Positions 11,077 through 61,463 of a stretch of 63,120 nt of DNA are shown one piece after another. Below the pieces are notes generated by a model that ran no database searches, was not told the origin of the DNA, and was given only the letters and a program-made list of their open reading frames with translations. Numbering within the stretch: position 1 is the stretch's first letter; each line of letters starts with the position of its first letter. The stretch is from Acidobacteriota bacterium (GTDB taxonomy: Bacteria > Acidobacteriota > Blastocatellia > Pyrinomonadales > Pyrinomonadaceae). The DNA lies in the NCBI GenBank assembly GCA_003222895.1, contig QHXI01000051.1, positions 1 through 63,120 of the forward strand, written 5' to 3'. The translations under genes were made by a program, and so were the position numbers.

Positions 11077-11483
11077 CTCTTTTTCCAATTCGGCAATCAC
11101 GATTTTCTATCGGCCTACAACGCCGCTACTATCTCGGTCGTTGTTGCGGATCCTCCGTTCCTGAGCTATGCAAAGAACGATCCGCTCCGTAAATTGATGC
11201 ACAACGAACGTTTCGCGTTTACTTTCCGTGAAAGTCACGAATCCCGTGCACTTGCTGACGCACACGGTATATATACGACTCAGCGCGAATTGTCACCGAA
11301 AATTTTGGTGACGCGGCGACAACTTGACGTGATTGTCGACACATCAAATTAACATACGTGACACTTATCGGCAGGAAAGACGTGACATTTCGTGGGAGTA
11401 GTTTCGCGAGGATTCTGCCCTTACACGGAAAGGGATTACACCTAGACCTAAAAGGTTGGAATTGAGAAAGCTCACGCCAGCGC
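11077..11483. other. 407-base intergenic region between inositol-phosphate synthase and the Clp-like gene
   Basis: No convincing coding sequence is present. Open frames on the plus strand are shadows of the flanking genes. The region holds the candidate promoter and palindrome described separately and several GTGAC/GTCAC motifs in both orientations. Nothing else is recognised. Confidence 0.6.
11268..11312 (-). promoter_or_regulatory. Candidate promoter overlapped by a palindrome, upstream of the Clp-like gene
   Basis: On the minus strand a GTGACA (11,291-11,296) stands 15-17 bases before TATATATA (11,268-11,275), a plausible -35/-10 pair pointing at the Clp-like ATPase. A near-perfect palindrome with arms GTCACC and GGTGAC around an A4/T4 centre (11,292-11,312) overlaps the -35 box, as an operator would. 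Further TGTCACGT copies occur at about 11,360 and 11,384. Confidence 0.45.
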
Positions 11484-20403: not shown

Positions 20404-21492
20404 TCAGCCTTCATTTTTGAAGTGTTCAAAGCCTCGCGGTTCAAGTTTCCAGGTTCGATTCTTCTCCGTGATATTCATAATGCCCGCGTCTGTGATTTCG
20501 CCGATGCGGGAAATTGGGACGCCGTCGACGAGTTTCGGCAGGCGCGAAGCGTTCTTCGGGTCGACCGTGAACAGGAGTTCGAAGTCTTCGCCGCCGTGCA
20601 ACGCGAGGGCGAGCGGATCGAGCGCGCGCCGGCCGCACAGATGTCTCACATCTTCATCGAGAGGTATCGAAGCCGAATCGATCAAAGCGCCGACGTCGCT
20701 TTCTTTGCACAAGTGATAGAGATCGGACGAGAGGCCATCGCTGAGATCGATCATAGCCGTTGCGAGACGCTCTTCACCGAGCACGATTCCCCAGCCGACG
20801 CGTGGTGATGGGCGGAGCTGGCGCAGAAGGAGAGTTTGAATTGAGTCGTCATCGGATTTCTCTGTCACTCGATCGGATAAGCCCTGCCTTACAGTCGGGC
20901 TAGTGCTCGGTTCTGACTCCCGACCCCCGACTCCAGACTCCTGCTTCATTTGTGCGCCTTTCTCAATCAACTTCAACCCAGCGGCTGCGCCTCCGAGCGT
21001 TCCCGTCAGGTAGATTTGATCGCCCGGCTGGGCGCCGGATCGTAATATCGCCGCGCCCGACGCAACTTCGCCAAGGACGACCGAATCGATCACGATGCCT
21101 TGCTTTGATTCTGACACGTCGCCGCCGGTGAGCGTCACTCCGAATTGATCGGCAAGCGCAAAGAAGCCTTCGAAGAATTCATCCTTGAACTTGTTATCCC
21201 AGGTTTCGCGAGACATGCCAATCGAAAGAAAAGACCAGGACGGCCGCGCGCCCATCGACGCGATGTCCGACAAAGAAACGGCTAGGGCTTTGTGACCGAG
21301 CAGGCCCGGCGGCGTGGCGTTGCGAATAAAGTCGATTTCCTCGACCAGTAGATCGGTGGTGACGATCAAATCCCGATTGCCAACTTCAGCGATCACCGAC
21401 GCATCGTCGCCGATGCCCTTGATTACACGAGTCGAATGTTTGCGTGATTGAGTTTGGCGCCGAAGCTGATCGATGAAATCGAATTCGTTCAT
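20404..21492 (-). CDS. thiL: Thiamine-monophosphate kinase
   Basis: A 362-residue kinase that phosphorylates thiamine monophosphate to the active diphosphate. ATP/metal motifs are present: KGIGDDASVI, TTDLLVEEIDF, ALAVSLSDIASMGA, GGDVSES and the later DLSDGLSSDL, HGGEDFELLF. Between about residues 176 and 215 there is a low-complexity insertion (GVGGRESEPSTSPT...) not typical of ThiL. It is encoded by a GACTCC-type repeat (20,914-20,942) and stays in frame. Neighbours are not thiamine genes. Confidence 0.93.
   Translation of the reverse strand: MNEFDFIDQLRRQTQSRKHSTRVIKGIGDDASVIAEVGNRDLIVTTDLLVEEIDFIRNATPPGLLGHKALAVSLSDIASMGARPSWSFLSIGMSRETWDNKFKDEFFEGFFALADQFGVTLTGGDVSESKQGIVIDSVVLGEVASGAAILRSGAQPGDQIYLTGTLGGAAAGLKLIEKGAQMKQESGVGGRESEPSTSPTVRQGLSDRVTEKSDDDSIQTLLLRQLRPSPRVGWGIVLGEERLATAMIDLSDGLSSDLYHLCKESDVGALIDSASIPLDEDVRHLCGRRALDPLALALHGGEDFELLFTVDPKNASRLPKLVDGVPISRIGEITDAGIMNITEKNRTWKLEPRGFEHFKNEG
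20914..20942. repeat. GACTCC-type simple repeat inside thiL
   Basis: On the plus strand the stretch reads as near-repeats of GACTCC(C/A)GAC over about 29 bases, within the thiL reading frame. It encodes the low-complexity Gly/Ser/Glu insert. Its composition resembles the simple dispersed repeats in this window rather than the surrounding codons. Confidence 0.5.
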
Positions 21493-37548: not shown

Positions 37549-37833
37549 TCAGCATGGTCTGGTAAAGGTTCTAGGCACGTTATTGTGCGATATGCAATGG
37601 CATATCTGAAATGGGGGAATACAAACCTGCCCAAACCGGGGAATCGGAAAACATAGTCGGTGACACGGCCCACAATCGGGTTGCTTGCAGGAGTCCGAGC
37701 CTTCCGGATCGATACCGGTATCAAGTTGGGCGGGACGCAAACTGCCGCCCCCATGTCCGAAGGTCCGAACCGTTCGGTGCCCCTCGTCTGTTGCATACAG
37801 GGATGCGGCAGCATTAAATCCTGGTGTCCTCAT
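37549..37833 (-). CDS. Cys-rich precursor peptide A, PGF leader family
   Basis: 94 residues from an ATG at 37,833 with AAGGAGG 8 bases upstream. The leader MRTPGFNAAASLYATDEG has the shared PGF-x-A-x-x-S-L motif. The tail has eight Cys (49, 54, 57, 61, 71, 78, 80, 94), including CGPC and CHC. It aligns with peptide B, also 94 residues, over the whole length: CGPC, G-x-VC-x-P and a C-x-C-x-SHN-x-V segment then a terminal PC are shared. Last gene of the precursor operon. The product could be a disulfide-rich or otherwise modified secreted peptide; the modification is not known. Confidence 0.8.
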   Translation of the reverse strand: MRTPGFNAAASLYATDEGHRTVRTFGHGGGSLRPAQLDTGIDPEGSDSCKQPDCGPCHRLCFPIPRFGQVCIPPFQICHCISHNNVPRTFTRPC

Positions 37834-38143
37834 TTTATAATCCTCCTTAAACGTCAGCTCTGCCAGGGGGGCATGGTAACACAGCGTCAGCATGACAAGT
37901 TGCGTGCATAGATTGTAATTGCCGGCCTTTGTTTTAGACGGAGGCTTTCGCCATAAATCCAGGCATGTTCATTTTCCCCGCCACGGCAAGCGCCACCATT
38001 CGAAACGAGAAAGCGTTATGCTCTCAGCGACAACAGAAAAATTTCGCGCGCGCCTAACAACCTGGCCCGCCAATCGCAAGAGACGACAATCTTGCCATCT
38101 CTCGATGATCGGGCCTTGAGATGCTCGCCGCTCGAGGTCCTCG
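37834..38143. other. 310-base gap between precursors A and B
   Basis: This contains a leader-only precursor remnant (37,934-37,972) and the ribosome-binding site of peptide A. Sequence next to the stop of peptide B resembles that next to the stop of peptide A (shared CGAGCGGC and AGCATC), so this is the flank of a duplicated unit. No other credible gene is seen. Confidence 0.55.
37934..37972 (-). pseudogene. Leader-only remnant of a precursor peptide
   Basis: ATG at 37,972 opens a 12-codon frame, MNMPGFMAKASV, ending in TAA at 37,934-37,936. The first residues equal the leader of peptide B (MNMPGF) and keep the A-x-(A/S) spacing, but a stop codon replaces the rest. The upstream ribosome-binding site is weak (GGCGGGGAAA). 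I read it as a dead precursor copy between B and A. Confidence 0.6.
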
Positions 38144-38428
38144 TTATGAATAGCACGGTAGCGGGAAGCGTCTAACGACACCGTTATGCGATACGCATGC
38201 GCAGTGCTTGACTGAAGGAGTACAAACCTTCCGCCCAAAAACGATGAAGCATCTGCCCTCTATGCATGGCCCGCAAAAGGGCTCTGAGCAATTCCCCACT
38301 TCTGTATGGATATCATCAAGCTGCGTGGCATGCACCGCTTGGGCTTCGCAGGCGAAAACTCCGGCCATTCGATACATCTCTTTCACTTGGTTCAGCGACG
38401 CTTCAGCATCAAATCCAGGCATATTCAT
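38144..38428 (-). CDS. Cys-rich precursor peptide B, PGF leader family
   Basis: 94 residues from the ATG at 38,428 (an in-frame GTG at 38,437 lies within the ribosome-binding region, AAGAGG standing 8 bases before the ATG). The leader is MNMPGFDAEASLNQVKEMY. Eight tail Cys (47, 52, 55, 60, 69, 76, 78, 92) match those of peptide A, with CGPC, GRKVC, CACVSHNGVV and a final PC; one extra Cys is at 27. The duplicated-gene relationship with A is clear. The unusual Cys spacing (4-2-4-8-6-1-13) may form a defined fold. Confidence 0.8.
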   Translation of the reverse strand: MNMPGFDAEASLNQVKEMYRMAGVFACEAQAVHATQLDDIHTEVGNCSEPFCGPCIEGRCFIVFGRKVCTPSVKHCACVSHNGVVRRFPLPCYS

Positions 38429-38450
38429 TTCAATCACCTCTTTGGTTTAG

Positions 38451-38552
38451 TTAGCGCTCATGGTAAGGAAACAACCTGGTGACTCGGAACAGAAGCTCCT
38501 CGGTCACGTCGACTCGGGTCGAGGACTTCTCCGGCGACATTGATCCCGTCGC
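38451..38552 (-). pseudogene. C-terminal remnant of a duplicated PatG-like domain
   Basis: On the minus strand this segment encodes about 26 residues ending at TAA (38,451-38,453) that align without gaps with the C-terminus of the 39,564-40,511 protein: both have an EK-x-x-TRVDVTEE-x-x-F core and end P-Y-x-x-R before the stop, 16 of 26 identical. An in-frame TGA lies just upstream at 38,553-38,555, so the rest of the gene is missing. It sits between peptides C and B. Confidence 0.75.
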
Positions 38553-38562
38553 TCAACACGCC

Positions 38563-38823
38563 TCAGACGTATGTACAGCTGAAACAGGCGGGATTTGCGA
38601 GTCCAGCATGAAACCACATACATCCACTATTGAAGAAACATGGAAAGAACGCGGCAGGTGCACCGAGAGCCGTACACAGCGCACCCAAAGCCGTGCGAGT
38701 CCCGCAGTTAACTCGAAACGCGGGAGAGATAACTGCTTCCCGCGGTGAAAAGTTAGCTTGAGACTCATACTGCTCACTTGTCATGCGGAGTGAACCATCC
38801 GCAGTAAACCCAGGTAGATTCAT
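38563..38823 (-). CDS. Precursor peptide C, PGF leader family
   Basis: 86 residues; the ATG at 38,823 follows GGAAGGAG. The leader MNLPGFTADGSLRMTSEQY keeps the shared motif. The tail is hydrophobic and aromatic with six Cys (40, 50, 62, 68, 80, 83), including FFPCFFNSGCMWF, and is unrelated to the tails of A, B or H. A 15-base perfect tandem duplication lies 12 bases before the start (38,836-38,865). Predicted substrate of the cluster protease; final form unknown. Confidence 0.78.
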   Translation of the reverse strand: MNLPGFTADGSLRMTSEQYESQANFSPREAVISPAFRVNCGTRTALGALCTALGAPAAFFPCFFNSGCMWFHAGLANPACFSCTYV

Positions 38824-38835
38824 TTCTTTCTCCTT

Positions 38836-38865
38836 CCCTTAAGTGAAATCCCCTTAAGTGAAATC
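38836..38865. repeat. 15-base tandem duplication upstream of peptide C
   Basis: CCCTTAAGTGAAATC is present twice head to tail at 38,836-38,850 and 38,851-38,865, just before the ribosome-binding site of peptide C. It may be replication slippage, or a spacing element affecting translation. Confidence 0.85.
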
Positions 38866-38943
38866 GTCCATATCTATTTTCCGGTAAACAGACGCGCGCT
38901 TGCAACTACGCGCTGAGAACGACAGTCCGCTAAGAGTGAACAA

Positions 38944-39186
38944 CTATCTAAAGCAACCGGCACGATCCATAACTCCCTCCCAAAACTCTGCCCGGTTGTA
39001 GGCTCCTTCGTTGTAGGCCCCCCAAACCAATTCAGCCAGCACATGGCAAACCCTGGCCATAGCGGGTTGCACAGTTGCCACAGCATCATTCGAATCAAAC
39101 GGGGTGGTCAGGCCATATCCCTTCCGGACCTTTGCAATTGCGTTCTCAGCGGTAAAGCCTGGCAAGTTCACTTTAAGAGTTTTCAT
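38944..39186 (-). CDS. Precursor peptide D, PGF leader family
   Basis: 80 residues; the ATG at 39,186 follows AAAGGAGA. The leader MKTLKVNLPGFTAENAIAKVRKGY keeps PGF-x-A. The tail is amphipathic, aromatic and Cys-poor (Cys47, Cys78), with a small internal repeat in GAYNEGAYN and an end in EGVMDRAGCFR. It shows that tail chemistry varies while the leader stays, as in other RiPP families with permissive processing. The assignment rests on leader and position. Confidence 0.75.
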   Translation of the reverse strand: MKTLKVNLPGFTAENAIAKVRKGYGLTTPFDSNDAVATVQPAMARVCHVLAELVWGAYNEGAYNRAEFWEGVMDRAGCFR

Positions 39187-39204
39187 GTCTCTCCTTTTCG
39201 GCCA

Positions 39205-39262
39205 TTAGTAATTTGAGAGTACTCCCATTTCCTGGTTACGTCGCGTAGACCTGCAAAGCTTC
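39205..39262 (-). pseudogene. Possible second PatG-like C-terminal scrap
   Basis: Minus-strand bases here align at DNA level with the 3' end of the PatG-like gene: TCGAGAAG, then after 15-16 bases GACGT(A/G)ACC and AGGA, with one-base shifts that break the frame. It lies between peptides E and D, the same place as the clearer scrap between C and B. The match is short, so this is tentative. Confidence 0.4.
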
Positions 39263-39290
39263 TCGATCTTCAAAAGAGGGCGCTCTGCCG

Positions 39291-39533
39291 TTAGCCGATC
39301 GTGGGTCTAAGTACAGACCGTATCGCAGTAGCCGCCGCGCCGATGCAGGCAGGATTAGGACCGCCAAGGCATGCCGCTGTTTCCGCGCCTATGGCCACTG
39401 CACACTTGAACCATTTGGGCATTTGTGGAATCACAGTATCAATTTGTGTTCGCTCCCACTTTACGTTCGTCCGTGAGTGATGAGAAGTATCGGAAAGCGA
39501 CGCGTTGGCGGAAAATCCTGGAACGTTTCTCAT
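39291..39533 (-). CDS. Precursor peptide E, PGF leader family
   Basis: 80 residues; the ATG at 39,533 follows GAGGAGG. The leader MRNVPGFSANASLSDTSHH carries the shared motif. The tail has a Gly/Ala-rich hydrophobic segment (CAVAIGAETAACLGGPNPAC) with Cys44, 55 and 63, then AAATAIRSVLR: it could insert in or cross a membrane, as many peptide bacteriocins do. It starts 30 bases after the PatG-like gene, with a small hairpin between them. Confidence 0.77.
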   Translation of the reverse strand: MRNVPGFSANASLSDTSHHSRTNVKWERTQIDTVIPQMPKWFKCAVAIGAETAACLGGPNPACIGAAATAIRSVLRPTIG

Positions 39534-39543
39534 TTTGCTGCCT

Positions 39544-39563
39544 CCTCGAAAGGTTCGACCTTT
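39544..39563 (-). promoter_or_regulatory. Small hairpin between the PatG-like gene and peptide E
   Basis: On the minus strand GAAAGGT and ACCTTTC pair around a 3-base CGA loop, immediately after the PatG-like stop codon and before the ribosome-binding site of peptide E. It might set the ratio of enzyme to precursor mRNA. No T-run follows. Confidence 0.4.
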
Positions 39564-40511
39564 CTATCGATCAAAATATGGTGACATCTTCGTCACCAGG
39601 AATGGAAACTCCTCGGTCACGTCTACACGAGTAAAGAACTTCTCGACCACATAGGTCGCGCGGTTCGTGAACGAAAAGATCACGTCAACGACGTTGCGCG
39701 TGCTGCTCAGCGGCGACCTCTGAACGTCCACTGCAGTCAACGAAGAGTTCCGCCCGAACGCATCAGCGGCCGTGGTGTAGATCGCCGGATAGCGAACGGC
39801 CAGATAATTCAATGCGCGATGATCGTCGGTCGACCCAGCATTGTCCGCGGCCAGCATGATCCGATCGAACAACTCTTCCGCCGCTGGGCCAAATTCTTTA
39901 GCCGAAGTCTTTTCTGGTCGCGGAATAGCCTTGATGAGCGCATCACGATCAAAGGAATAGATTTGATCGAATATGACAATTGGCGCCATCAGTCCGTTGC
40001 ACATTTCCGGTGGAGCGATTGGTCCCCGCACGCCCACCACGACATCAAGGTCGAGAGGGCTTGGCTGGGGACGCACCGCCTCAAGCAGTTGGTCGTAGTC
40101 GGCGGGATCACGTGGCACGAGGATGTAAGTCTCCAGACCCTCAATACTAAATACCCAGCACACTTGACGTGCGATGTAGCGATTCGAGCGCTCGGACAGC
40201 ACGGCGTGGGCCGCTGCTCGGTCGGTGAGCCCCTTGGTATCAGCCCGCCCCGTCGCCTGCGCAAATTCCTTTTCCACCGCGAGAGTCGGAAAGCGCATTT
40301 CGACGCGGCCGATCGCAAAGACATAGGACGGCGCAGTCGCGCCATTGCCATTAGAGGCAGCCGTCGCTCCGCAGGTCGCACAAGTCGCGGGGTTCACTTG
40401 AGGGTACTGGGCCCTTCCGGCGTTGTTGTCGGCAGGCGGTGCAATTATCTGACCTGCGTTAACAGCATCTAGTTGACTTGTCGATTGCTCATTCAATTCA
40501 GATTGTTCCAT
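39564..40511 (-). CDS. Standalone PatA/PatG-type C-terminal domain protein
   Basis: 315 residues from the ATG at 40,511 (AAGGAG upstream). After a disordered N-terminus and a CATC pair (Cys44/Cys47), the sequence resembles the region that follows the protease domain in PatA/PatG-family cyanobactin maturation proteases: YVFAIGRVEMRFPTL, EKEFAQATGRAD, CWVFSIEGLETYIL, GVRGPIAPPEMCNGL, DQIYSFDRDALIKAIP, RALNYLAVRYPAIY and the end TRVDVTEEFPFLVTK. It has no protease triad. The protease is encoded separately upstream, so the normally fused enzyme appears split. It probably recognises precursors or the protease partner. Family recall is from memory. Confidence 0.72.
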   Translation of the reverse strand: MEQSELNEQSTSQLDAVNAGQIIAPPADNNAGRAQYPQVNPATCATCGATAASNGNGATAPSYVFAIGRVEMRFPTLAVEKEFAQATGRADTKGLTDRAAAHAVLSERSNRYIARQVCWVFSIEGLETYILVPRDPADYDQLLEAVRPQPSPLDLDVVVGVRGPIAPPEMCNGLMAPIVIFDQIYSFDRDALIKAIPRPEKTSAKEFGPAAEELFDRIMLAADNAGSTDDHRALNYLAVRYPAIYTTAADAFGRNSSLTAVDVQRSPLSSTRNVVDVIFSFTNRATYVVEKFFTRVDVTEEFPFLVTKMSPYFDR

Positions 40512-40546
40512 GACCCTTCTTCTCCTTTCGGGATAAAAAGCAAGTT

Positions 40547-40750
40547 CTATCGCCTGCCAGAAAAAACCATCCAGCGATTGAGAGCCGCTGCCCGCCGTTC
40601 GCAACCGCCGCAAGGCTTGATGCCGACGGCATAAGTAGCGCGTTTGATAACGTCACCTAGTCCGACCTCTTTGTCGCTTACGAAACCAGGCAGGCGCACC
40701 TGGAAGGGCTTTGAGTGACGCTCATTAATACGAGGCTTTGTCTCCTTCAT
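40547..40750 (-). CDS. Precursor-like peptide G with CGGC motif
   Basis: 67 residues from the ATG at 40,750 (GGAAAG upstream). It has an internal RLPGF, then VSDKEVGLGDVIKRATYAVG and CGGCERRAAALNRW. The GLGDVIKRAT...CGGC...LNRW pattern is one I recall from small uncharacterised proteins in many bacteria, so it may be less like the other peptides: perhaps a zinc- or metal-binding short protein, or a precursor with a CxxC core. The PGF at 21-23 and position between protease and PatG-like gene favour the cluster. The frame remains open upstream, but no good start precedes this ATG. Confidence 0.65.
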   Translation of the reverse strand: MKETKPRINERHSKPFQVRLPGFVSDKEVGLGDVIKRATYAVGIKPCGGCERRAAALNRWMVFSGRR

Positions 40751-40811
40751 ATTCTTTCCGATTCGTAATGCGGCTTCCGCCGTGCTCGCGAGTGCCGAAC
40801 TGTTGCTTTGG

Positions 40812-41075
40812 TTAACAAGCCTCCTGGAAACAGAATGGCTTACCCCAGCTGCAGACTTCCCCGCCTGCCCACTGCAAATAGCAATGGGATATCTTGCAGC
40901 AAATCGTTTGCTTGCCATTTCGACACGGAGTTCGTTCCCAGCACTGCTCATCGCCCCGACCTTGTTGAGGTTCAATCCTGGCCGAGGCATCCGATAAGCT
41001 GCCCGGAAAGTTTGTCCATTGGCTCGCTGGTTTTGCGAGCGATGCTTCCGAAGTGAATCCCGGTATTCTCGTCAT
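40812..41075 (-). CDS. Cys-rich precursor peptide H, PGF leader family
   Basis: 87 residues; the ATG at 41,075 follows AAAGGAG (the longer frame from 41,144 overlaps the protease stop and has no such site). The leader MTRIPGFTSEASLAKPASQW keeps the motif. The tail has eight Cys (45, 51, 59, 60, 65, 75, 82, 87) with a CC pair and a terminal Cys, in a pattern different from A and B. It lies directly downstream of the protease, which is its likely processing enzyme. Confidence 0.8.
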   Translation of the reverse strand: MTRIPGFTSEASLAKPASQWTNFPGSLSDASARIEPQQGRGDEQCWERTPCRNGKQTICCKISHCYLQWAGGEVCSWGKPFCFQEAC

Positions 41076-41133
41076 GTTGTTTCTCCTTTCGAACGGATCG
41101 TTGATTTGATAAGAGCCATTTCTTGCGTGTCCA

Positions 41134-42090
41134 TCATCCGGCACGCTTGATCAAGTCTTGATAGGCCGCCCACGCATCGAGTAACGGTGGGACAACCGTT
41201 GGACTTCTTTGGAAACCCGCTCTTGTTACGGCGCTCTTCACCGCGGCTGCCGTCGCCTTCGGAAATACTGACAACAACAACGTGATGGTCCCGGTAACAA
41301 ACGGAGCCGCCGCGCTTGTCCCGCCGAATGTAGGCGCTTTGCCGTTAACACCGAGGCTCGTGACGCCGTCACCGGGCGCGCTAAGTCCTCGCCTCCCGAT
41401 GGAATTTCCGAGATTCGAATAACCAAGTGGTCTGCCTCGAAGGTCACATGCAATCACCGGAATAACCCAAGGATGACGCGTGAGAGCAGTACTACCTACT
41501 CTTCCCTGATTGCCCGCCGCCACGACGACGATAACGCCGCGCCTTGCGGCATAATCAAGCACCTCTTCTAACTTCCTTTCACCTTTAGAAGAGGGTTGCG
41601 CGAGCGCCGCACTCAGGTTAATCACGTGAGCGCCGCCCTCAATGCAATCACTGAGCGCTGTGGCGAGTTCTTGCGGAGTCGCGCTTGGCATATGACCGTT
41701 CGCCGATGTTCCCTCCGCGAAAATTGGCCTTACGAGCAGAGTACACTTCGGGCAAATGGCTGGGGCGGCCGAACCTCTCGTTGCACACAAGATGCCTGCC
41801 ACGAAAGTTCCGTGCATACACGCCACGCTGTCGGCTCGCGCGCAAGTGCCGGCGAGCGTTCCAGGAATCTCACGGATATTTGTATTTGATAGATCCTTGT
41901 GGTTAGAGGCAATAGGCCCGTCTATTAGCGCGATCGTCGTTTCAACTCGACCGCTGCTGAGTTCCATGAGTGGTCTGAGCTTAACCAGATCCAATGGACT
42001 CGCGGCGTTCCGCACAGCTGGAGAAAATAGACTCGCAGGCTGCCTGTAAGAGGAAGTTGTAATCCGCGAAATGGGAGTCGTTGGAAACAC
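41134..42090 (-). CDS. Subtilisin-like (S8) protease of the precursor cluster
   Basis: 318 residues, GTG start at 42,090 with AAAGGAA upstream. The S8 triad is complete: Asp57 in ALIDGP, His93 in HGTFVAGI, Ser259 in GGTSAAAPF, and oxyanion Asn194 in AAGNQG. Extra Cys (83, 91, 102, 113, 116, 148) include CPKC. There is no signal peptide, so it is probably cytosolic, like PatA/PatG-type maturation proteases. The protein ends soon after the catalytic domain; the PatG-like C-terminal region is a separate gene 623 bases downstream, beyond two peptide genes. It likely removes the PGF leaders. Macrocyclisation is unproven. Confidence 0.85.
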   Translation of the reverse strand: MFPTTPISRITTSSYRQPASLFSPAVRNAASPLDLVKLRPLMELSSGRVETTIALIDGPIASNHKDLSNTNIREIPGTLAGTCARADSVACMHGTFVAGILCATRGSAAPAICPKCTLLVRPIFAEGTSANGHMPSATPQELATALSDCIEGGAHVINLSAALAQPSSKGERKLEEVLDYAARRGVIVVVAAGNQGRVGSTALTRHPWVIPVIACDLRGRPLGYSNLGNSIGRRGLSAPGDGVTSLGVNGKAPTFGGTSAAAPFVTGTITLLLSVFPKATAAAVKSAVTRAGFQRSPTVVPPLLDAWAAYQDLIKRAG

Positions 42091-42201
42091 TTGAAATTCC
42101 TTTGAGCTAATCCAAGGCTCAGCTTGACGTGGTTAACGCATGCACTTTGGGCCGATGTTTTTATGACGTGCGAGGTGTATCGGTCGAGTGAATGCAGCCC
42201 T

Positions 42202-42229
42202 TATATACCTACGGCTAAGTGGGTGTCAA
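42202..42229 (-). promoter_or_regulatory. Near-consensus sigma70 promoter of the precursor-peptide operon
   Basis: On the minus strand TTGACA (42,224-42,229) and TATATA (42,202-42,207) are 16 bases apart and point at the protease, about 112 bases upstream of its GTG. TATAAG with 18 spacing is an alternative -10. This is among the clearest promoters I see in the window, and no other strong one appears inside the cluster. Confidence 0.7.
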
Positions 42230-42263: not shown

Positions 42264-43028
42264 TCACTGCTCATCAGTCACGCGAATGAAATCGCTCGCC
42301 GGATTGTATTGATCCAAACTTTCGGTTGCGCTTGCGTCAATGATCGATCCAATCGGCGGATGAAATTCATCCGTCGGAACTGACGAGCACGGCGGTGACT
42401 CGGCAGTCATGACCGGCACCGGTTCGATGAACGGCGCCGGCGGCGGCGGTTGATGCGAGACGTGGATGTCTCGATCTTCATAACGCAGGCCGTGGGGAAA
42501 CTCCTTACGAACCTTGTCTGCAATCTCACCGAGATCGATGAAGCAGTCCGCAACGTCAATCAACTTAGGCGCAGTGTTCGATCGGAATCCGACAATCTCG
42601 ACGCGACAGCCTTTGTAGGCCACCGCATTCACGGCATAGACGAAGTCTTCGTCTCCCGAAACCAACACAGCGGTATCGTAACGTCCGGCCAGCGAAAGCA
42701 TATCAACAGCTATTTCGACGTCGAGATTTGCTTTCCGCGTCCCGTCATAAAAAGTTTTGAGTTCCTTCTGCACGACGCGGAAACCGTTGCGCCTCATCCA
42801 CAGCAAAAATCCCTGTTGACGTTCAGCGCCGGCATCGACGCCGGTGTAGAAGAAAGCTCGAAATAAACGACCATCGCCCAGCAGCACACGCAGCAGCTTG
42901 TTATAGTCAATATCTATATTGTGAAATCGCGCCGCGTGAAAGAGATTATTTCCATCAATAAAAATCGCCACTTTTCCGCGATGGCCGAACTGCAACGAAA
43001 TGTTGTTGTTCGAATCAAAGTGGTTCAC
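42264..43028 (-). CDS. NYN/LabA-like (DUF88) nuclease-domain protein
   Basis: A 254-residue protein. Residues about 14-160 form a PIN-like NYN domain: VAIFIDGNNLFHAA with the first acidic residue, then DVEIAVDMLS and VLVSGDEDFVYAVNAV, the acidic residues that bind metal. Members are RNA-processing nucleases or regulators. The C-terminus is a Pro-rich low-complexity tail (HQPPPPAPFIEPVPV). It lies just upstream of the precursor operon on the same strand but is separated by that operon's promoter, so I do not count it as part of the cluster. Confidence 0.86.
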   Translation of the reverse strand: MNHFDSNNNISLQFGHRGKVAIFIDGNNLFHAARFHNIDIDYNKLLRVLLGDGRLFRAFFYTGVDAGAERQQGFLLWMRRNGFRVVQKELKTFYDGTRKANLDVEIAVDMLSLAGRYDTAVLVSGDEDFVYAVNAVAYKGCRVEIVGFRSNTAPKLIDVADCFIDLGEIADKVRKEFPHGLRYEDRDIHVSHQPPPPAPFIEPVPVMTAESPPCSSVPTDEFHPPIGSIIDASATESLDQYNPASDFIRVTDEQ

Positions 43029-55094: not shown

Positions 55095-58000
55095 ATGTTT
55101 CGCAACAGAGCCAACGGCGCCGAACCTCATTCTGAGTTCACACCTCAGTTTGCCACTTTCGTCGAGGTCCTTAATTGGAGAGCCCGACACCAGCCTGATC
55201 GCGTAGCTTATACATTTCTGAAGGATGGCGAGACAGAACTGGTCGACCTAACTTATCAGAACTTGGACCATCAGGCGCGGGCCATCGGGATGTCGCTTCA
55301 ATCAATCGGTGCAGCTGGCGAGCGTGTATTGCTGTTGTATCCCCCCGGGCTGGAATATGTCGCCGCTTTTTACGGTTGCCTCTACGCGGGAGCAGTAGCC
55401 GTGCCAGCTTACCCGCCGCGATTTAACCGGAACTTGCTCCGGCTTCAAACCATGATAGGCGATTCTGAAGCCACCGTGGCGCTGACGACGGCCGGGCTCC
55501 TTAGCGGCGTCGAGCATCATTTTCCACAGGCGCCGGACTTAGGAGCACTGCGATGGCTCGCCACTGACAAAGCTTGCAACAATCCGGCAGTCGAATGGAC
55601 TCATCCAGCGATCAGCAGTGAGACGCTGGCTTTCCTGCAATACACATCCGGCTCAACGGGCTCGCCAAAGGGCGTCATGCTCACGCACGGAAACTTGCTA
55701 CACAATTCGGCTTTGATTCAAGAGTGCTTCGGAACAACCCCGGATAGCAGAGGAATGGTCTGGCTCCCGCCTTACCATGACATGGGCCTCATTGGCGGGA
55801 TTCTACAGCCGCTCTTCGTCGGAATGCCGGTCACGCTCATGTCACACGTTTCCTTTCTGCAGCGGCCATTGCGCTGGTTGCAAGCCATCTCTCGCAGCAG
55901 AGCCACCTCGAGCGGAGGTCCTAATTTCGCGTATGACCTCTGCATTTCCAAGACCAGTCCAGAGGAGCGGGCGACACTTGATCTGAGCAGTTGGACCACG
56001 GCTTTCAATGGTGCGGAACCAATCCGCCCAGAGGTGCTGGAAAGATTTGCCCGCACATTCGAATCCTGCGGCTTTCGCCGAGAGGCTTTTCTTCCCTGCT
56101 ATGGACTTGCAGAAGCAACTCTGATCGTCTCTGGAGCTAAGAGTGTGAACCCGCCTGTCGGCAGAGTCTTTGAGACGCAGGCGTTAGAGGAAAATCGGGC
56201 CGTCGAAATGCCTTCAACCGGCGAGAATGAGGGCGGCCGCGTGCTGGTGGGATGCGGTCGGAATCTGCGCGACCAAAAAATCGCCATTGTTGAGCCAGAG
56301 ACTCGGATCCAATGTTCTTCGGGGCGCATCGGAGAGGTCTGGGTCTCAGGACCGAGCGTGGCGCAAGGTTACTGGAAGCAGCCTGAAGAGACTGACCGAA
56401 CTTTTGGAGCATATCTTTCAGATCGCACCGACGGGCCATTTCTACGCACTGGAGATCTTGGCTTCCTGCAGGACAGCGAGCTGTTCATCACCGGTCGTCT
56501 CAAAGACTTGATTATCATACGCGGAAACAATCACTACCCACAGGATCTAGAGGCGACAGCGGAACAGAGTCACTGGGCGATGAAGTCTGGTTGCGGTGCC
56601 GCCTTTTCGGTCGAGGTCAAAGGTGAAGAGCAACTGATAATCGTGCACGAGGTCAAGCGTGAGTACCGTACCATAAATGTCTATGAAGTCTCCGAGGCTA
56701 TTCGTCGCGCCATAGCCGAGAACCATGGTATCGAGTTGCACTCATTGGTTTTGCTCAAACCAGGAAGTATCCCAAAGACGTCCAGCGGTAAGATTCAGCG
56801 CCATGCCTGCCGTCTTAATTATCTAACGGCTAATCTTCAGGCTTTGGGGAACTGGACACAGCCTCTGGAACAAGACGCGGAACGCGCCGCTCTGAACGCA
56901 GCAAAGAACCTTGAAGGCGCTACTGAGCAGGGAAGTTCCCCCAAAGATTCTAGCGTAATCGATAACATCCAGACTTGGCTGGTGTCATGCATCTCGAAAC
57001 GGCTGCAGATTCTTCCCGGAAAGATAGATGTCCGCGAGTCATTCGCGCACTACGGTTTAGATTCAGCGGCAGCGGTGAGTATCTCAGGAGAACTGGAGCA
57101 ATGGCTGGGGCGCAGGCTCTCCCCCACGCTGGTTTATGAATATCCCACTATTGCGGCGCTTGCCTTGCATTTGGCAGCGGACGCGGCCAAAACGGAAACC
57201 TTCTTCGCCGACGAGGGAGGCGCTCTCGTGGCGGAAGAACCGATCGCCATAGTTGGTATTGGTTGTCGTTTCCCAGGTGCCCAGAACGGCTTGGCCTTCT
57301 GGCAGCTCCTGCGAGATGGCGTCGATGCCATCACGGAAGGAGCATTGCAACGGTGGGGCGCTGACATCTATGACCCAGATCCGGCTGCGCCTGGCAAAGT
57401 CAACAGCTGCTGGGGTGGCTTTCTGGATGAGGTGGACCAGTTCGACCCGCACTTTTTTGGCATCTCTCCTCGCGAGGCAACTCGCATGGATCCTCAGCAG
57501 CGATTGCTTCTCGAAGTAGCTTGGGAGGCGCTGGAGGACGCCGGGTTAGTGGCGGAGCAACTGGCTGGTACCCGGACAGGCGTTTTTGTGGGGATTTCGA
57601 GTAATGACTACGGACAGCTTCAATGGAGTAATCACCGTGGCATAGACGCGTATGCGGGAACCGGCAACGCTCTGAGTATAGCCGCCAATCGCCTCTCTTA
57701 TCTGCTCGATTTTCGCGGACCAAGCATGTCCATTGATACGGCTTGCTCTTCCTCCCTAGTAGCCGTACATCTGGCATGTCGGAGCCTTTGGAACAAAGAG
57801 TCTACCGTGGCTCTTGCTGGTGGCGTGAACCTAATTCTTTCACCAGGAATCACCATCAATTTTACTAAAGCAGGTGTGATGGCGCCCGATGGTCGCTGCA
57901 AAACTTTCGACGCGCGAGCGAACGGCTACGTCAGGGGTGAAGGAGCCGGGATGGTGGTTCTAAAGCCTCTCTCAATCGCCCTGGCAGATGGTGATCCGAT

Positions 58001-61000
58001 CTACGCTATGATTCGAAGCACAGCCATAAACCAGGATGGACGCACGAATGGGCTGATGGCCCCCAACCGGCACGCGCAAGAAGCGGTGCTGCGCGAAGCA
58101 TACAAGCGCGCTGGAATCTCGCCTGGCCGGATCCACTACGTTGAAGCACATGGAACGGGAACGCTCTTAGGCGATCCCATTGAGGCGGGGGCGTTGGGAA
58201 CCGTGCTCGCCACAGATCGGCCACTGGGCAAGCTCTGCGCCATAGGTTCTGTGAAAACAAATATTGGTCATCTGGAAGCCGCCGCGGGAATTGCCGGCTT
58301 GATCAAGGTAGCCCTGTCACTTAGACATCGCGCTATCCCTCCGAGCCTGCATTTCCACGAGCCTAATCCCTACATACCCTTTAGCGAACTCTCCTTGTAT
58401 GTCCAGCAGAACCTCGGCCATTGGCCCGAAGATTCCGATCAGACTTACGCCGGGGTCAGTTCTTTTGGTTTTGGTGGCACGAACGCGCACGTTGTTCTTC
58501 AGGGACCAGCGAGAACAGACTCTGCGGCTGTGCAACCCAACAGGCCAACTGGGCGGGCCGAATTACTGCCGCTGTCGGCGCGCCATGCGGGATCCTTACA
58601 CTCTATGGTGCGCGCCCATCAAGGCTTCTTAACGAACGGCGACGATCTCAACGAATTGCACGAAGTGTGTTACACGGCCGCCGTGCGGCGCAGCCATCAC
58701 GATCAACGAGTAGCGTTCGTAGCCCATTCTCACGCCGAGCTGGCAGAACAACTGGGAACGTTTCTCGATGGGGAGTCTTGTTCGAGCGTATTCTCAGGTC
58801 GAAAGGTTCCGGGTAAGTCACCGCGGCCGGTCTTCGTGTTTCCAGGTCAGGGCTCACAATGGTTCGGCATGGGACGGGATTTGTTGAGGCAAGAGCCGGT
58901 CTTTCGAGAAGCTATGGAGCGATGCGAGACGGCTATAGGCCAACATGCTGATTGGTCTTTGCTGGAGGAACTCGCAGCTGACGAAGCAAGATGGAGGATG
59001 AATGAAATCGAGGTGGTGCAGCCTACTCTCTTTGCTATTCAGGTTGCCCTGGCAGCCGTATGGCGATCCTGGGGGGTTGAGCCTGAGGCGGTGGTAGGTC
59101 AAAGCATGGGAGAGGTGGCCGCGGCACACATTGCCGGCGCGCTGAGTCTGCAAGACGCCGCCAAGGTCATCTGCCTCCGCAGCAAGTTGCTGAAACAGGT
59201 GAGCGGTCAGGGAAGTATGGCTATCGCAGAGCTTTCTTATGAGCAGGCTCTACACGCGCTCGTTGGTTACGAAGATCGTTTATCCATTGCCGTCAGCAGC
59301 AGTCCGGTGTCGACGGTCATCTCGGGAGATACGCCAGCGCTGCTCCAGTTGATGGGTGAACTGGAGCGACGGGATGTCTTCTGCCGCCTGGTAAATGTAG
59401 ATGTAGCCTCTCACAGTCCCCAGATGGATCCCCTGCGAGGTGAGTTGTTACGTCTCCTTGCAGGTTTGCTGCCTCGGCGTCCATCCATCCCAATCTATTC
59501 AACGGTGACAGGTGAGAACAGCGATGAGCTCGCGTTTGACGCCGCCTACTGGATGCGCAACCTGAGAGAGCCAGTGCTTTTCTCCAACTCAGTTCAACGA
59601 TTATTGGAAGGCGGCCATGATGTTTTCCTGGAAATAAGCCCTCACCCCGTGCTCACGGGCGTCGTACAGCAAGTGCTCCAGCACGTCGGAAGTGAAGGAT
59701 GTGTAGTGCCTTCGCTCCGGCGCGGAGAAGATGAACGGGCTGTGATGCTGGGAGGCCTCGGCGCTCTCTATGCCCGGGGTTATGCTGTCGATTGGAACAG
59801 ACAATACGCAACAAGAGGCCGCTGTGTTCAACTACCGTCTTATCCTTGGCAACATGAACGTTGTTGGCTGGAACCAGAGGCAACTGACAGCGGCTCAGAA
59901 AAGGAACTTGCCCGAAGCGATTATGGAAATGTGGGGGAACATCCACTCCTGGGCCACCATCTCAAGGTGGCGTACCCGCCCGGAACACATTGCTGGGAAG
60001 TCGAACTTGACCGGGCGGCGCTGGCTTACTTGGATGACCATCGAGTTCGGGGCGCTGTGGTGCTGCCCGGCGCCGCTTTCGTCGAAATGGCGCTGTCTGC
60101 GGTTACGCAAGCTTTTGGAGCGGGACCACGTTCGTTGATGGGGATAGAGTTCAACCGAGCGCTCTTTTTGGACCCGGACCGGCGGCAAAAACTTCAGGTC
60201 GTAATCTCTTCTCGCTTTGGCGATGAAGCAGCGTTCCACATCTATGGCTACTCATTCGAAGCGGGCCCTTCAGAAGCTGACTGGACACTCCACGCCACCG
60301 GAACGGTTCGTCGAGAGGCCGTTGATGGCGCCCCCCCCGCTGTGACTCTGCCCTCTTCGGAAGAGTTCCTTAAAGGCGAGTGGGAAAAAATTGACCCTGC
60401 AGAATTCTACCAGAAGCTGACCGCCGCGGGGCTCCAATACGGGCCCCGATTTCAGATGATTGAACGACTCCAGAGGCGCGACGGAGAGTCCCTCGCAAAA
60501 TTGAGGATTCCGCCGGAGTTGGAGCAAGAGCTTGATGCTTACGAACTCCATCCGGCTATCTTGGACGGCTGCTGGCAGGCACTTGCTGCTGCCCTGCCCG
60601 CTGAAGTCGTTGCTACGGGTGACGCGGGAGTCTACCTGCCGGTACGCGTGGATCGTGTCCGCGTCTATAGTCGCCACCGCAAAGAGCTCTGGAGCCATGC
60701 ACATCTTCGACCAGTCGCAGATCAGACGACGGGTATTCTCGAGGGGGATATTCGTCTGTTGGACGAAGCCGGTCATGTGGTGGCCGAGATTGTCGGCCTG
60801 CGGAGTCAACGCCTGGATCGTAGCTCAGAGCACCGCGATGTTTCGGAAGACCTGAGCGATTGGCTCTACGACTTACAGTGGCAGCGGCTTGCGCCGTTGA
60901 AAACACCGCTTGATGTCGACCCTTCTCCCACCAGCCCAGTCAGTAGTTGGTTAATCTTCATAGACAAACAAGGCGTTGGTGAGAGTCTGGCAGAACTTTT

Positions 61001-61463
61001 GGCGACGCGCAGTGAAAAGTGCGTCATGGTTTCCGTGGGTGAAGCATTCGAGCGGATAGACGAAAGCCACTTCCGTCTGAACCCCGCGAGACCTGAACAC
61101 TTCAGGCGGTTACTTGACGAGGCGATAGGACATGAACACTCTGCCAACTGTGGCGTGGTCCACCTGTGGAGTCTGGACATCGTTGTATCCGAAGTTGTCG
61201 GCGTGGCTGCCCTTGAATCGGCGCAAGCCGTAGGATGGCCCAGTGCCTTGAATCTAGTCCGCTCGCTGACTCACGGCGGTTGGACAAAGCCTCCGCGGCT
61301 GTGGCTAGTGACGAGAGGTGTTCATGCTGTGGGAACAGCACCCGCCCCTGCGGTTGTATTCCAAGCCCCGCTGTGGGGTCTTGGCAGGACGGTTGATTTT
61401 GAACATCCCGAATTCCATTGTTCCATGATTGACCTGGTCAAGCGCGATATGGCCTCAGGTTGA
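55095..61463 (+). CDS. Type I polyketide synthase, FAAL-ACP-KS-AT-DH part (frame broken at 3' end)
   Basis: 2,122 residues. About 1-590 is a fatty-acyl-AMP ligase (LQYTSGSTGSPKGVMLTHGNL, YGLAEATLIVSG, LRTGDLGFL). The ACP has Ser657 in YGLDSAAAV. The ketosynthase (about 714-1140) has Cys884 in DTACSSS, His1019 in HGTGT and His1059 in NIGHLEAAAG. The acyltransferase has Ser1337 in GQSMGE, with VASH later (methylmalonyl-like but inconclusive). The dehydratase has His1649 (HxxxGxxxxP) and Asp1824 (DGCWQ). Next is a structural ketoreductase half ending GRTVDFEHPEFHCSMIDL, where the frame runs into a stop. The FAAL suggests a fatty-acid starter loaded directly on the ACP. Confidence 0.9.
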   Translation: MFRNRANGAEPHSEFTPQFATFVEVLNWRARHQPDRVAYTFLKDGETELVDLTYQNLDHQARAIGMSLQSIGAAGERVLLLYPPGLEYVAAFYGCLYAGAVAVPAYPPRFNRNLLRLQTMIGDSEATVALTTAGLLSGVEHHFPQAPDLGALRWLATDKACNNPAVEWTHPAISSETLAFLQYTSGSTGSPKGVMLTHGNLLHNSALIQECFGTTPDSRGMVWLPPYHDMGLIGGILQPLFVGMPVTLMSHVSFLQRPLRWLQAISRSRATSSGGPNFAYDLCISKTSPEERATLDLSSWTTAFNGAEPIRPEVLERFARTFESCGFRREAFLPCYGLAEATLIVSGAKSVNPPVGRVFETQALEENRAVEMPSTGENEGGRVLVGCGRNLRDQKIAIVEPETRIQCSSGRIGEVWVSGPSVAQGYWKQPEETDRTFGAYLSDRTDGPFLRTGDLGFLQDSELFITGRLKDLIIIRGNNHYPQDLEATAEQSHWAMKSGCGAAFSVEVKGEEQLIIVHEVKREYRTINVYEVSEAIRRAIAENHGIELHSLVLLKPGSIPKTSSGKIQRHACRLNYLTANLQALGNWTQPLEQDAERAALNAAKNLEGATEQGSSPKDSSVIDNIQTWLVSCISKRLQILPGKIDVRESFAHYGLDSAAAVSISGELEQWLGRRLSPTLVYEYPTIAALALHLAADAAKTETFFADEGGALVAEEPIAIVGIGCRFPGAQNGLAFWQLLRDGVDAITEGALQRWGADIYDPDPAAPGKVNSCWGGFLDEVDQFDPHFFGISPREATRMDPQQRLLLEVAWEALEDAGLVAEQLAGTRTGVFVGISSNDYGQLQWSNHRGIDAYAGTGNALSIAANRLSYLLDFRGPSMSIDTACSSSLVAVHLACRSLWNKESTVALAGGVNLILSPGITINFTKAGVMAPDGRCKTFDARANGYVRGEGAGMVVLKPLSIALADGDPIYAMIRSTAINQDGRTNGLMAPNRHAQEAVLREAYKRAGISPGRIHYVEAHGTGTLLGDPIEAGALGTVLATDRPLGKLCAIGSVKTNIGHLEAAAGIAGLIKVALSLRHRAIPPSLHFHEPNPYIPFSELSLYVQQNLGHWPEDSDQTYAGVSSFGFGGTNAHVVLQGPARTDSAAVQPNRPTGRAELLPLSARHAGSLHSMVRAHQGFLTNGDDLNELHEVCYTAAVRRSHHDQRVAFVAHSHAELAEQLGTFLDGESCSSVFSGRKVPGKSPRPVFVFPGQGSQWFGMGRDLLRQEPVFREAMERCETAIGQHADWSLLEELAADEARWRMNEIEVVQPTLFAIQVALAAVWRSWGVEPEAVVGQSMGEVAAAHIAGALSLQDAAKVICLRSKLLKQVSGQGSMAIAELSYEQALHALVGYEDRLSIAVSSSPVSTVISGDTPALLQLMGELERRDVFCRLVNVDVASHSPQMDPLRGELLRLLAGLLPRRPSIPIYSTVTGENSDELAFDAAYWMRNLREPVLFSNSVQRLLEGGHDVFLEISPHPVLTGVVQQVLQHVGSEGCVVPSLRRGEDERAVMLGGLGALYARGYAVDWNRQYATRGRCVQLPSYPWQHERCWLEPEATDSGSEKELARSDYGNVGEHPLLGHHLKVAYPPGTHCWEVELDRAALAYLDDHRVRGAVVLPGAAFVEMALSAVTQAFGAGPRSLMGIEFNRALFLDPDRRQKLQVVISSRFGDEAAFHIYGYSFEAGPSEADWTLHATGTVRREAVDGAPPAVTLPSSEEFLKGEWEKIDPAEFYQKLTAAGLQYGPRFQMIERLQRRDGESLAKLRIPPELEQELDAYELHPAILDGCWQALAAALPAEVVATGDAGVYLPVRVDRVRVYSRHRKELWSHAHLRPVADQTTGILEGDIRLLDEAGHVVAEIVGLRSQRLDRSSEHRDVSEDLSDWLYDLQWQRLAPLKTPLDVDPSPTSPVSSWLIFIDKQGVGESLAELLATRSEKCVMVSVGEAFERIDESHFRLNPARPEHFRRLLDEAIGHEHSANCGVVHLWSLDIVVSEVVGVAALESAQAVGWPSALNLVRSLTHGGWTKPPRLWLVTRGVHAVGTAPAPAVVFQAPLWGLGRTVDFEHPEFHCSMIDLVKRDMASG

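Follow-up and report, generated by a model that had tools for sequence, protein, structure and literature searches.

The 63,120-nucleotide stretch of contig QHXI01000051.1 from a member of the Acidobacteriota (family Pyrinomonadaceae), hereafter the window, carries on its minus strand one copy of a compact cassette that appears not to have been described before. It encodes an S8 serine protease, a stand-alone protein that corresponds to the domain of unknown function (DUF) of the cyanobactin enzymes PatA and PatG (the PatG-like protein), a small conserved protein designated G, and several small precursors that share a leader containing the residues PGF. This is probably a self-contained, horizontally spread cassette resembling those for ribosomally synthesized and post-translationally modified peptides (RiPPs), which makes small disulfide-rich peptides by leader removal. 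It is a leader/protease system of the RiPP or cyanobactin type but not a cyanobactin, because the defining features of the latter, the macrocyclase domain and the AYDG site, were looked for and are absent.

Association of the leader with the PatG-like protein

A degenerate DNA pattern for approximately PGFTAEA(S/T)L, run over the GTDB species genomes without consulting PatG, yielded 42 loci; 28 of them (in 26 genomes) were judged to be starts of leader peptides and 14 to be chance matches, a split made by reading after the translations had been seen. Whole-genome profile searches, in which scoring was confined to the best first-look candidates of each genome, detected a PatG-like protein in 25 of the 26 leader genomes and in none of the 14 chance-match genomes. 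A mechanical rule (motif in a translated open reading frame [ORF]) gives 25 of 29 and 0 of 11, respectively, and inclusion of the three loci that had been set aside (L026, L034, and L040, with no start codon close before the motif or with a short tail) also results in 25 of 29 genomes. The leader thus belongs with a dedicated maturation pair related to PatA/PatG, as an earlier note on the window had proposed, and is not found mostly away from PatG-like genes, an outcome that the note had named as counting against its proposal. In the opposite direction, all 10 further genomes chosen solely by a match to the PatG-like profile (nine Nitrosomonadaceae and one cyanobacterium) carry leader peptides behind the PatG-like gene. 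All counted peptides are encoded on the PatG-like strand, and the S8 gene lies upstream of the PatG-like gene on the same strand in all 38 loci that hold both.

Leader, junction, and core of the precursors

The 133 peptides analyzed here comprise a first set of 99 and a PatG-first set of 34 (8 of these from plasmids); peptides shorter than 45 amino acids (5 of 104) and, for the core counts, cores shorter than 20 amino acids (3 of 133) were dropped. Their consensus reads M..PGFTAEASLYKTS..Y, followed by a Cys-poor spacer, the motif V-x-P-(Q/A/S) at ∼31 residues past the PGF, and a Cys-rich core. This junction motif is present in 73 of the 99 first-set peptides, compared to a mean of 16.8 and a maximum of 29 in 500 shuffles of the tails. 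Within a fixed range of residues 24 to 42, it occurs in 29 of the 34 PatG-first peptides (shuffled mean 2.0, maximum 7) and in 71 of the 99 first-set ones (mean 6.4, maximum 16). The two sets are not fully independent: 9 of the 10 PatG-first genomes are related to genomes of the first set, and among the 34 PatG-first peptides, 1 has an identical counterpart in the first set and 6 have a counterpart there with at least 50% identity. The motif is found in 23 of the 28 PatG-first peptides that are less than 50% identical to any peptide of the first set. These shuffle controls ignore relatedness, for which the cluster-level cysteine parity described below corrects in part. A Gly-Gly pair between residues 18 and 36 is seen in at most 33 of the 133 peptides and is therefore not the common junction. 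No described leader family (Double-glycine, NHLP, or Nif11) was recognized: the best E value of the window peptides against Pfam and NCBIfam was 0.054, and that of 22 representative peptides was 0.004, with no family common to more than one peptide.

Cysteines are concentrated behind the junction. In the 73 motif-bearing peptides of the first set, they make up 10 of 2438 residues up to the end of the motif and 515 of 4045 residues after it. Of 130 cores, 123 contain an even number of cysteines, 6 an odd number, and 1 none, while shuffling of residues across the cores produces 65 even ones on average and 85 at most. With one core per similarity cluster, there are 60 even and 3 odd cores in 64 clusters, the largest of which (39 cores) is joined largely through Gly-rich matches. 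The parity is robust to the choice of the boundary, as 120 to 124 of 133 sequences remain even for cuts at residues 20 to 34, and 113 are even as whole peptides; among control small ORFs with two or more cysteines from the same loci, mostly not genes, 569 are even and 370 odd. The predominance of even numbers is strong, albeit indirect, evidence for pairing of the core cysteines as disulfides, which makes disulfide formation the one supported option among those listed in the earlier note.

The same cysteines might instead bind a metal (Zn, Fe, or Cu) in peptides that stay inside the cell, with leader removal by the S8 protease activating or turning over a metal buffer. Such a role is quite unlikely. 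It would be in keeping with the even numbers, with the CxC and CxxC spacings seen in several core families, with the lack of an export signal by eye, and with the nature of several leader-scan hosts, which are ammonia or methane oxidizers rich in metalloenzymes. However, the cysteine spacings are very diverse, the sole match to a metal-related family comes from 1 of 22 peptides (E of 0.004, scoring 17 bits where the cut-off is 30), and the patG fragments discussed below, as well as the presence of several different cores per genome, are left unexplained.

Similar cores turn up in different phyla. In a core pair from an archaeon and an acidobacterium, all six cysteines are kept at 51% identity, and in 70 cross-group core pairs, some of them Gly-rich and of low complexity, 64% of the cysteines are kept versus 35% of other residues. 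In three core families of the Nitrosomonadaceae, the ratios of nonsynonymous to synonymous substitutions (dN/dS), which are simple pairwise estimates at high dS, are 0.07 to 0.16 for the core and 0.22 to 0.38 for the leader; the core of a fourth family could not be estimated. The peptide genes thus behave like real genes under purifying selection. Much longer precursors of ∼230 amino acids are encoded in a Brocadia locus (L092, positions 11144 to 11908) and a cyanobacterial one (L093, positions 2252 to 2968); these are 45% identical across phyla and share 30 cysteines in repeat-like CC blocks.

The S8 protease and the predicted cut

The protease matches PF00082 in Pfam with an E value of 1.2e-24, and in an alignment of 19 S8 sequences, His93 and Ser259 are invariant and Asp57 is nearly so, in agreement with the complete catalytic triad described in the earlier note. 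The PatG-type assignment given there does not hold. The best PDB matches of the S8 protein are cyanobactin proteases of the PatA type, with profile E values of 2e-43 for 4h6w and 2e-39 for 4h6v versus ∼4e-19 for the PatG macrocyclase structures 4h6x and 4aks, where the match begins only at profile position 72. The cassette carries a single S8 gene and no PatG-type macrocyclase S8 domain, and neither a signal peptide nor a pro-domain of the protease is apparent by eye. In one gammaproteobacterial cassette (L096, positions 10010 to 10798, minus strand), the S8 gene reads as two adjacent pieces and may be interrupted; the PatG-like protein, G, and peptides are present there.

According to the available text of PMC10885120, PatA-like enzymes cleave after G(L/V)E(A/P)S, and V-x-P-(Q/A/S) aligns with the last four positions of this site. 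Because the junction lines up with the PatA recognition site and the S8 protein is a PatA homologue, a cut directly after V-x-P-(Q/A/S) can be predicted as the simplest reading of its action.

Since the S8 protein fits PatA rather than the PatG macrocyclase, head-to-tail cyclization along the lines of PatG, which had been suggested for this cassette, is not indicated. A cyanobactin-like route, in which the S8 protein would both cleave the precursor and join the ends of the core as PatG does, is very unlikely, even though its DUF partner belongs to the PatG/PatA family and the S8 protein also matches the N-terminal part of TIGR03895, albeit under the cut-off. Aside from the single PatA-type S8 gene, no AYDG-type sequence ([AFS]YDG after residue 30) was found in any of the 133 peptides, and the cores are tens of residues long and Cys-rich, unlike the short cassettes of cyanobactins. 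In addition, 35 of 37 genomes have no YcaO, and in the other two, it is encoded on a different contig from the cassette. The absence of AYDG-type sites together with the missing YcaO therefore indicates neither macrocyclization nor azole chemistry. Of the specific candidates, PatG-type macrocyclization was rejected on the PatA-type fit and the missing AYDG-type sites, and YcaO-dependent azole formation was rejected on the absence of YcaO. Precursors of cyanobactins carry a leader helix of the LAELSEEAL type; even the loose pattern L[AS]EL[ST] was not found in any of the 133 peptides.

The stand-alone PatG DUF protein

The protein encoded at positions 39564 to 40511 matches PF18047 (PatG_D) and PF18065 (PatG_C) with E values of 3.6e-30 and 6.8e-33, far over the Pfam cut-offs, and its relationship to the PatG DUF structure 4uvq is seen both in a profile comparison (1.1e-6) and in a Foldseek search (5.1e-12) with a model whose predicted local distance difference test (pLDDT) score is 64. 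The PatA/PatG-family domain assigned to it in the earlier note, for which an HMM search had been suggested, is thereby established; the match to an unrelated family that the note had named as a second refuting outcome did not occur. The window protein is 56 to 87% identical to 23 homologues in different phyla. Its residues 1 to 66 have pLDDT below 50, so this N-terminal tail, which holds a CxxC pair, is probably disordered. A P-Q motif resembling the precursor junction, beside CxC or CxxC, is found in this tail in 29 of 37 sequences, compared to a shuffled mean of 0.2, in a count that mixes related sequences, has 1 of its 38 rows not placed, and includes the window copy as a poor example. The model also shows weak matches to cystatin- and latexin-like folds, with probabilities below 0.5.

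The PatA/PatG DUF was crystallized in 2014; in the available text of PMC4259220, its fold is described as novel, its role is left open, and the question is raised why it is conserved. The same text reports no detectable binding of the PatG DUF to the linear cyanobactin precursor. No later function of the PatA/PatG DUF and no description of the leader, gene G, or a split PatG cassette were found in the literature covered, which had preprints and most subscription journals outside its scope; likewise, the available texts of PMC10885120, PMC10783134, PMC4603692, PMC3140520, and PMC4558948 contain no description of the leader or the split PatG cassette.

The conserved partner G

Gene content was compared in 40 loci with PatG-like matches below 1e-60, the threshold being relaxed for L096 and L106, with L108, L109, L140, and the fused L110 and L111 left out. 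Homologues of G, ∼67 amino acids long with the consensus RVRLPGFIxDEEIGLGDxxKRAT...GIKPCGGCERRAAALNRW, are present in 32 of these loci, in 31 of them between the S8 and PatG-like genes. The eight loci without a detected G are three from cyanobacteria, that of Methanoperedens, three from Nitrosomonadaceae, and one on a truncated contig. In a search of 297 genomes of the phylum of the window, with the best 20 candidates scored per genome, the G profile matched only in the genome of the window and in G084 and G259, the three known genomes with the split system; among 72,556 plasmids, it matched only the four that bear a PatG-like gene. In the genomes and plasmids sampled, full-length G was thus always accompanied by an adjacent PatG-like gene. 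Of the seven precursor genes counted in the earlier note, the six with a PGF leader stand, whereas G, given its conservation in 32 of 40 loci, was rejected as a seventh precursor and is a conserved partner.

The internal PGF of G aligns with the leader across nine columns (hhalign P-value 1.2e-4, probability 55%). The second half of G matches the phage family phrog_32048, which has no assigned function, in all 26 members scanned. A hypothetical protein of Nonlabens phage P12024S (positions 21307 to 21420) is 42% identical over 38 amino acids to the C-terminal half of G (E of 2e-4), which hints at a small-protein motif of wider occurrence. A PDB search with the AlphaFold model of G (pLDDT 68) gave no match below an E value of 6. 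On a Streptomyces xanthophaeus plasmid (L117, positions 6613 to 7762), PatG-like and G genes occur without S8 or leader peptides, a pair that may reflect a reduced or different use of these two proteins.

Distribution and genomic surroundings

The cassette is rare and patchy, spread across many bacterial phyla and one archaeon: its hosts include Acidobacteriota, Nitrosospira, Methylococcaceae, rhizobia, Brocadia, cyanobacteria, Streptomyces, and the archaeon Methanoperedens. The PatG-like profile alone matched 16 of 100 Nitrosomonadaceae genomes, 2 of 292 cyanobacterial genomes (one of them the chosen centre of the sample), and, in a phylum sample of 398 genomes around a Nitrosospira, only that centre itself. 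PF18065 was detected in 5 of 396 sampled genomes of the phylum of the window, being absent from two genomes of the same genus. Three of the five (that of the window, G084, and G259) combine split proteins with PGF peptides, and the other two (loci L110 and L111) encode fused S8-DUF proteins, around which the leader profile gave nothing above 6 bits within 19 kb. These two loci come from genomes G051 and G346; in the latter, PatG_C is matched three times across two adjacent ORFs, and one of these ORFs contains two copies of the DUF but no match to S8. Genome G1168, which has an intact cassette, also contains a second, decayed patG-like copy in several frames (L140), with no leader peptides detected nearby.

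On plasmids, PatG-like proteins cover at least 80% of the query in 4 of 72,556 records, at 48 to 74% identity (a fifth record reached 27%), and leader peptides accompany three of these four. The PatG-like tree mostly tracks taxonomy, with exceptions such as the Mesorhizobium plasmid protein, which groups with those of gamma- and betaproteobacteria at moderate support (86/75 and 92/81, inside a starred 98/95 group). There was no PatG-like match in 50,697 phage records, and a phage origin was rejected on these grounds.

This sporadic distribution, together with plasmid carriage and possible acquisition scars, would also suit a defence or conflict module, in which the protease senses a signal and releases peptides toxic to its own cell or to a phage. 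The S8 protein matches the PADLOC models for subtilase (1e-14) and IetS (1e-6), and half of G matches a phage family. Such a module is nonetheless hardly credible: the similarity between S8 proteins is generic, no conserved sensor or ATPase partner appears among the 25 commonest of 128 flank families, there are numerous, diverse peptides in place of a single effector, and the PatG-like protein was not found in phage records.

The surroundings of the cassette are not conserved. In a survey of 123 of 190 flanking ORFs (the 67 left out were mainly from plasmid loci, near-duplicates, or some very long ORFs), the commonest Pfam family occurred in only 4 of the 123 nearest-flank proteins, and Radical_SAM and ABC_tran in 2 each; these figures refer to the 25 commonest of 128 families, so that rare occurrences outside these are possible. 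The idea that a conserved modifying enzyme or transporter accompanies the cassette was rejected, as no widely shared family was seen in the 123 proteins.

Alternatively, the PGF leader might target the precursor to a complex of the PatG-like protein and G, where it would dock for export or surface display, with the S8 protein acting as a signal peptidase; the product would then be a secreted protein and not a modified natural product. This possibility would fit the conserved leader at a near-fixed distance from the junction, the ∼230-residue precursors of L092 and L093 with their large Cys-rich repeats, and the need of disulfide-bonded products for an oxidizing place. Still, this is unlikely, given that inspection by eye shows neither a transmembrane segment nor a signal in the PatG-like protein, G, or the S8 protease, and that no transporter family is prominent near the cassette (ABC_tran in 2 of the 123 flank proteins).

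Fragments of patG before peptide genes

Extra patG-like pieces (11 in total) lie beside the main gene in 10 of 43 loci scanned. Eight of the 11 end no more than 4 residues from the patG 3' terminus and are followed by the PGF codon of a leader 23 to 49 nucleotides later, a spacing much as behind intact patG; the remaining three do not abut a detected peptide gene. A control with the S8 gene gave only three additional matches across 39 loci, and one of these was to a different subtilase. Because truncated patG 3' ends directly precede some downstream peptide genes, a cassette-like acquisition is suggested, and movement of the patG 3' end with a peptide gene as a unit would be its simplest account.

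Proposed mechanism

The stand-alone PatG DUF protein and G would recognize or scaffold the leader, and, judging from homology and the junction motif, a cytosolic PatA-type S8 protease would cut directly after V-x-P-(Q/A/S). The freed core would then fold with paired cysteines, as the parity implies, and leave the cell by a route unlinked to the cassette. The patG scars suggest that new peptide genes would be gained in units that include part of the patG 3' end and recombine into the region behind patG. Inter-microbial competition or signalling is the likeliest putative role of the products.

Several observations weigh against the disulfide-peptide cassette proposed here. One leader-bearing genome, G420, has no PatG-like match, one Streptomyces plasmid lacks both S8 and peptides although it encodes the PatG-like protein and G, and G is missing from 8 of 40 loci (one of these on a truncated contig). 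The junction motif as written is missing in 26 of 99 first-set and 5 of 34 PatG-first peptides, some of which have close variants; the core of window peptide E is odd, and even cysteine numbers could equally serve metal binding. Disulfides need an oxidizing place, yet neither the protease nor the precursors have an export signal recognizable by eye, and no transporter linked to the cassette was found. Two of the eight patG scars (in the window and in L107) are weak, with E of 1e-3. Finally, the non-binding of the PatG DUF reported in the available text of PMC4259220 argues, by analogy, against leader recognition by this domain.

A broader reading goes beyond this cassette and is held tentatively, somewhat short of probable. 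It sees here an undescribed class of leader-directed disulfide-rich peptides, found in Bacteria and at least one archaeon and built as a four-part module of S8 protease, PatG DUF, G, and exchangeable precursors, in which G and the PatG-like protein would be substrate mimics or folding partners, recombination would occur at the patG 3' end, and cores would be exchanged between phyla. Substrate mimicry by G and the PatG-like protein is suspected because of the PGF inside G and the P-Q tail beside CxC/CxxC in the PatG-like protein; the Cys-containing tail of the latter suggests, as part of the same reading, a thiol-disulfide helper. If true, the mimic or folding-partner reading would give the PatA/PatG DUF its first function.

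Because the DUF stands alone here, is strongly conserved, and comes with leader peptides of its own, its role can be tested directly in a system of few genes. The cassette also offers a simple handle on a cross-phylum repertoire of apparent genetically encoded disulfide-rich peptides, most of which have a predicted cut site, and provides an example in which the exchange of peptide genes is anchored on a neighbouring gene.

Organization of the cassette in the window

From position 42090 down to 37549 of the minus strand, the genes are arranged in the order S8, H, G, PatG_D/PatG_C, E, D, C, B, and A (Table 1). Strong ribosome-binding sites had been noted for all seven small genes; the six ORFs with the PGF leader (H, E, D, C, B, and A) do have purine-rich sites, whereas the site upstream of G is weak by eye. 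G itself combines the internal leader-like RLPGF motif with CGGCERRA..LNRW. The tails of the peptides, previously considered unrelated, are not wholly so: A and B are paralogues over their full length (40% identity, E of 1e-17), five of the six share the junction motif V/I/L-x-P-Q/A, B being the exception, and the tails have in common a Cys-rich composition with mostly even cysteine numbers. Precursor B, which starts at 38428, has 8 cysteines past the leader and 1 inside it and lacks the canonical junction motif. The patG remnant lies directly before it, with the PGF codon 23 nucleotides beyond.

Table 1. Coordinates of the cassette features in the window
Feature	Coordinates	Strand	Details
S8 serine protease, PatA-type	41134..42090	-	GTG start; PF00082 and catalytic triad
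Precursor H	40812..41075	-	Leader MTRIPGFTSEASL; junction IEPQ; 8-Cys core; leader profile 23.7 bits
Gene G, 67-aa conserved partner	40547..40750	-	Homologues in 32/40 PatG-like loci
Stand-alone PatG DUF protein (PatG_D and PatG_C)	39564..40511	-	PF18047/PF18065; 4uvq
Precursor E	39291..39533	-	Junction VIPQ; 3-Cys core (among the few odd cores)
Precursor D	38944..39186	-	Junction VQPA; 2-Cys core
Precursor C	38563..38823	-	Junction ISPA; 6-Cys core
patG-like 3'-end remnant (weak)	38442..38531	-	tblastn E 1e-3, residues 228-253/253; profile match 3.4e-5
Precursor B	38144..38428	-	Leader MNMPGFDAEASL; leader profile 36.3 bits
Decayed precursor	37934..37972	-	Leader MNMPGFMAKASV, then stop; read directly from the ORF
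Precursor A	37549..37833	-	Leader MRTPGFNAAASLY; junction LRPA; 8-Cys core

The flanks of the cassette are ordinary, with citrate synthase and S-adenosylmethionine hydroxide adenosyltransferase genes on one side and an NYN-domain gene and a SpoU methylase gene on the other. The NYN-domain (LabA-like) nuclease gene (positions 42264 to 43028, minus strand) immediately precedes the S8 gene on this strand; the 25 commonest protein families in the flanks of other loci do not include NYN. A modular polyketide synthase of 2122 amino acids is encoded ∼13 kb from the cassette (positions 55095 to 61463, plus strand), with AMP-ligase loading (AMP-binding and carrier), ketosynthase, acyltransferase, dehydratase, and a partial further domain; no link between the two was seen.

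Comparison with known systems

The cyanobactin systems of the patellamide type are among the nearest known counterparts of this cassette. Similarly to these, it has a PatA-type S8 protease, the C-terminal DUF of PatA/PatG (PF18047/PF18065, 4uvq), albeit on a separate protein, and precursors made of a leader, a recognition site, and a variable core, with the V-x-P-(Q/A/S) junction resembling G(L/V)E(A/P)S as given in the available text of the source cited above. It differs from them in having no macrocyclase S8 domain, no AYDG site, and, in 35 of 37 genomes, no YcaO, as well as in its unrelated leader, its long cores with mostly even cysteine numbers, and its fourth partner G.

Small precursors near an S8 peptidase are also a feature of the group VI bacteriocin clusters of cyanobacteria, which encode proteins with S8 peptidase domains. 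In the available text of PMC3140520, however, the precursors were inspected for double glycines, ABC transporter and HlyD genes form part of the cluster groups, and the terms PGF and PatG do not appear; the PatG-like profile matched just 2 of 292 cyanobacterial genomes, one of them the chosen centre.

The fused proteins of the PatA/PatG family in L110 and L111 likewise combine S8 with a following PatG_C, but do so in one ORF where the cassette has split genes, and they have no leader-profile match above 6 bits in 19 kb.

In polymorphic toxin systems (Rhs and CdiA C-terminal cassettes with their orphan modules), the constant end of a gene is followed by a variable module, and truncated constant copies precede other modules. 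The patG 3'-end fragments that precede other peptide genes are similar in this respect; unlike in those systems, the constant part here is the 3' end of the neighbouring patG gene and not of the reading frame of the peptide itself, and no immunity genes were identified, although no search was aimed at them.

In terms of the general definition of RiPPs, the 133 peptides qualify as ribosomal precursors, in which the leader is conserved and the core varies, and a gene for a maturation enzyme is linked to them, the S8 gene lying upstream of the PatG-like gene and on its strand in all 38 loci with both genes.

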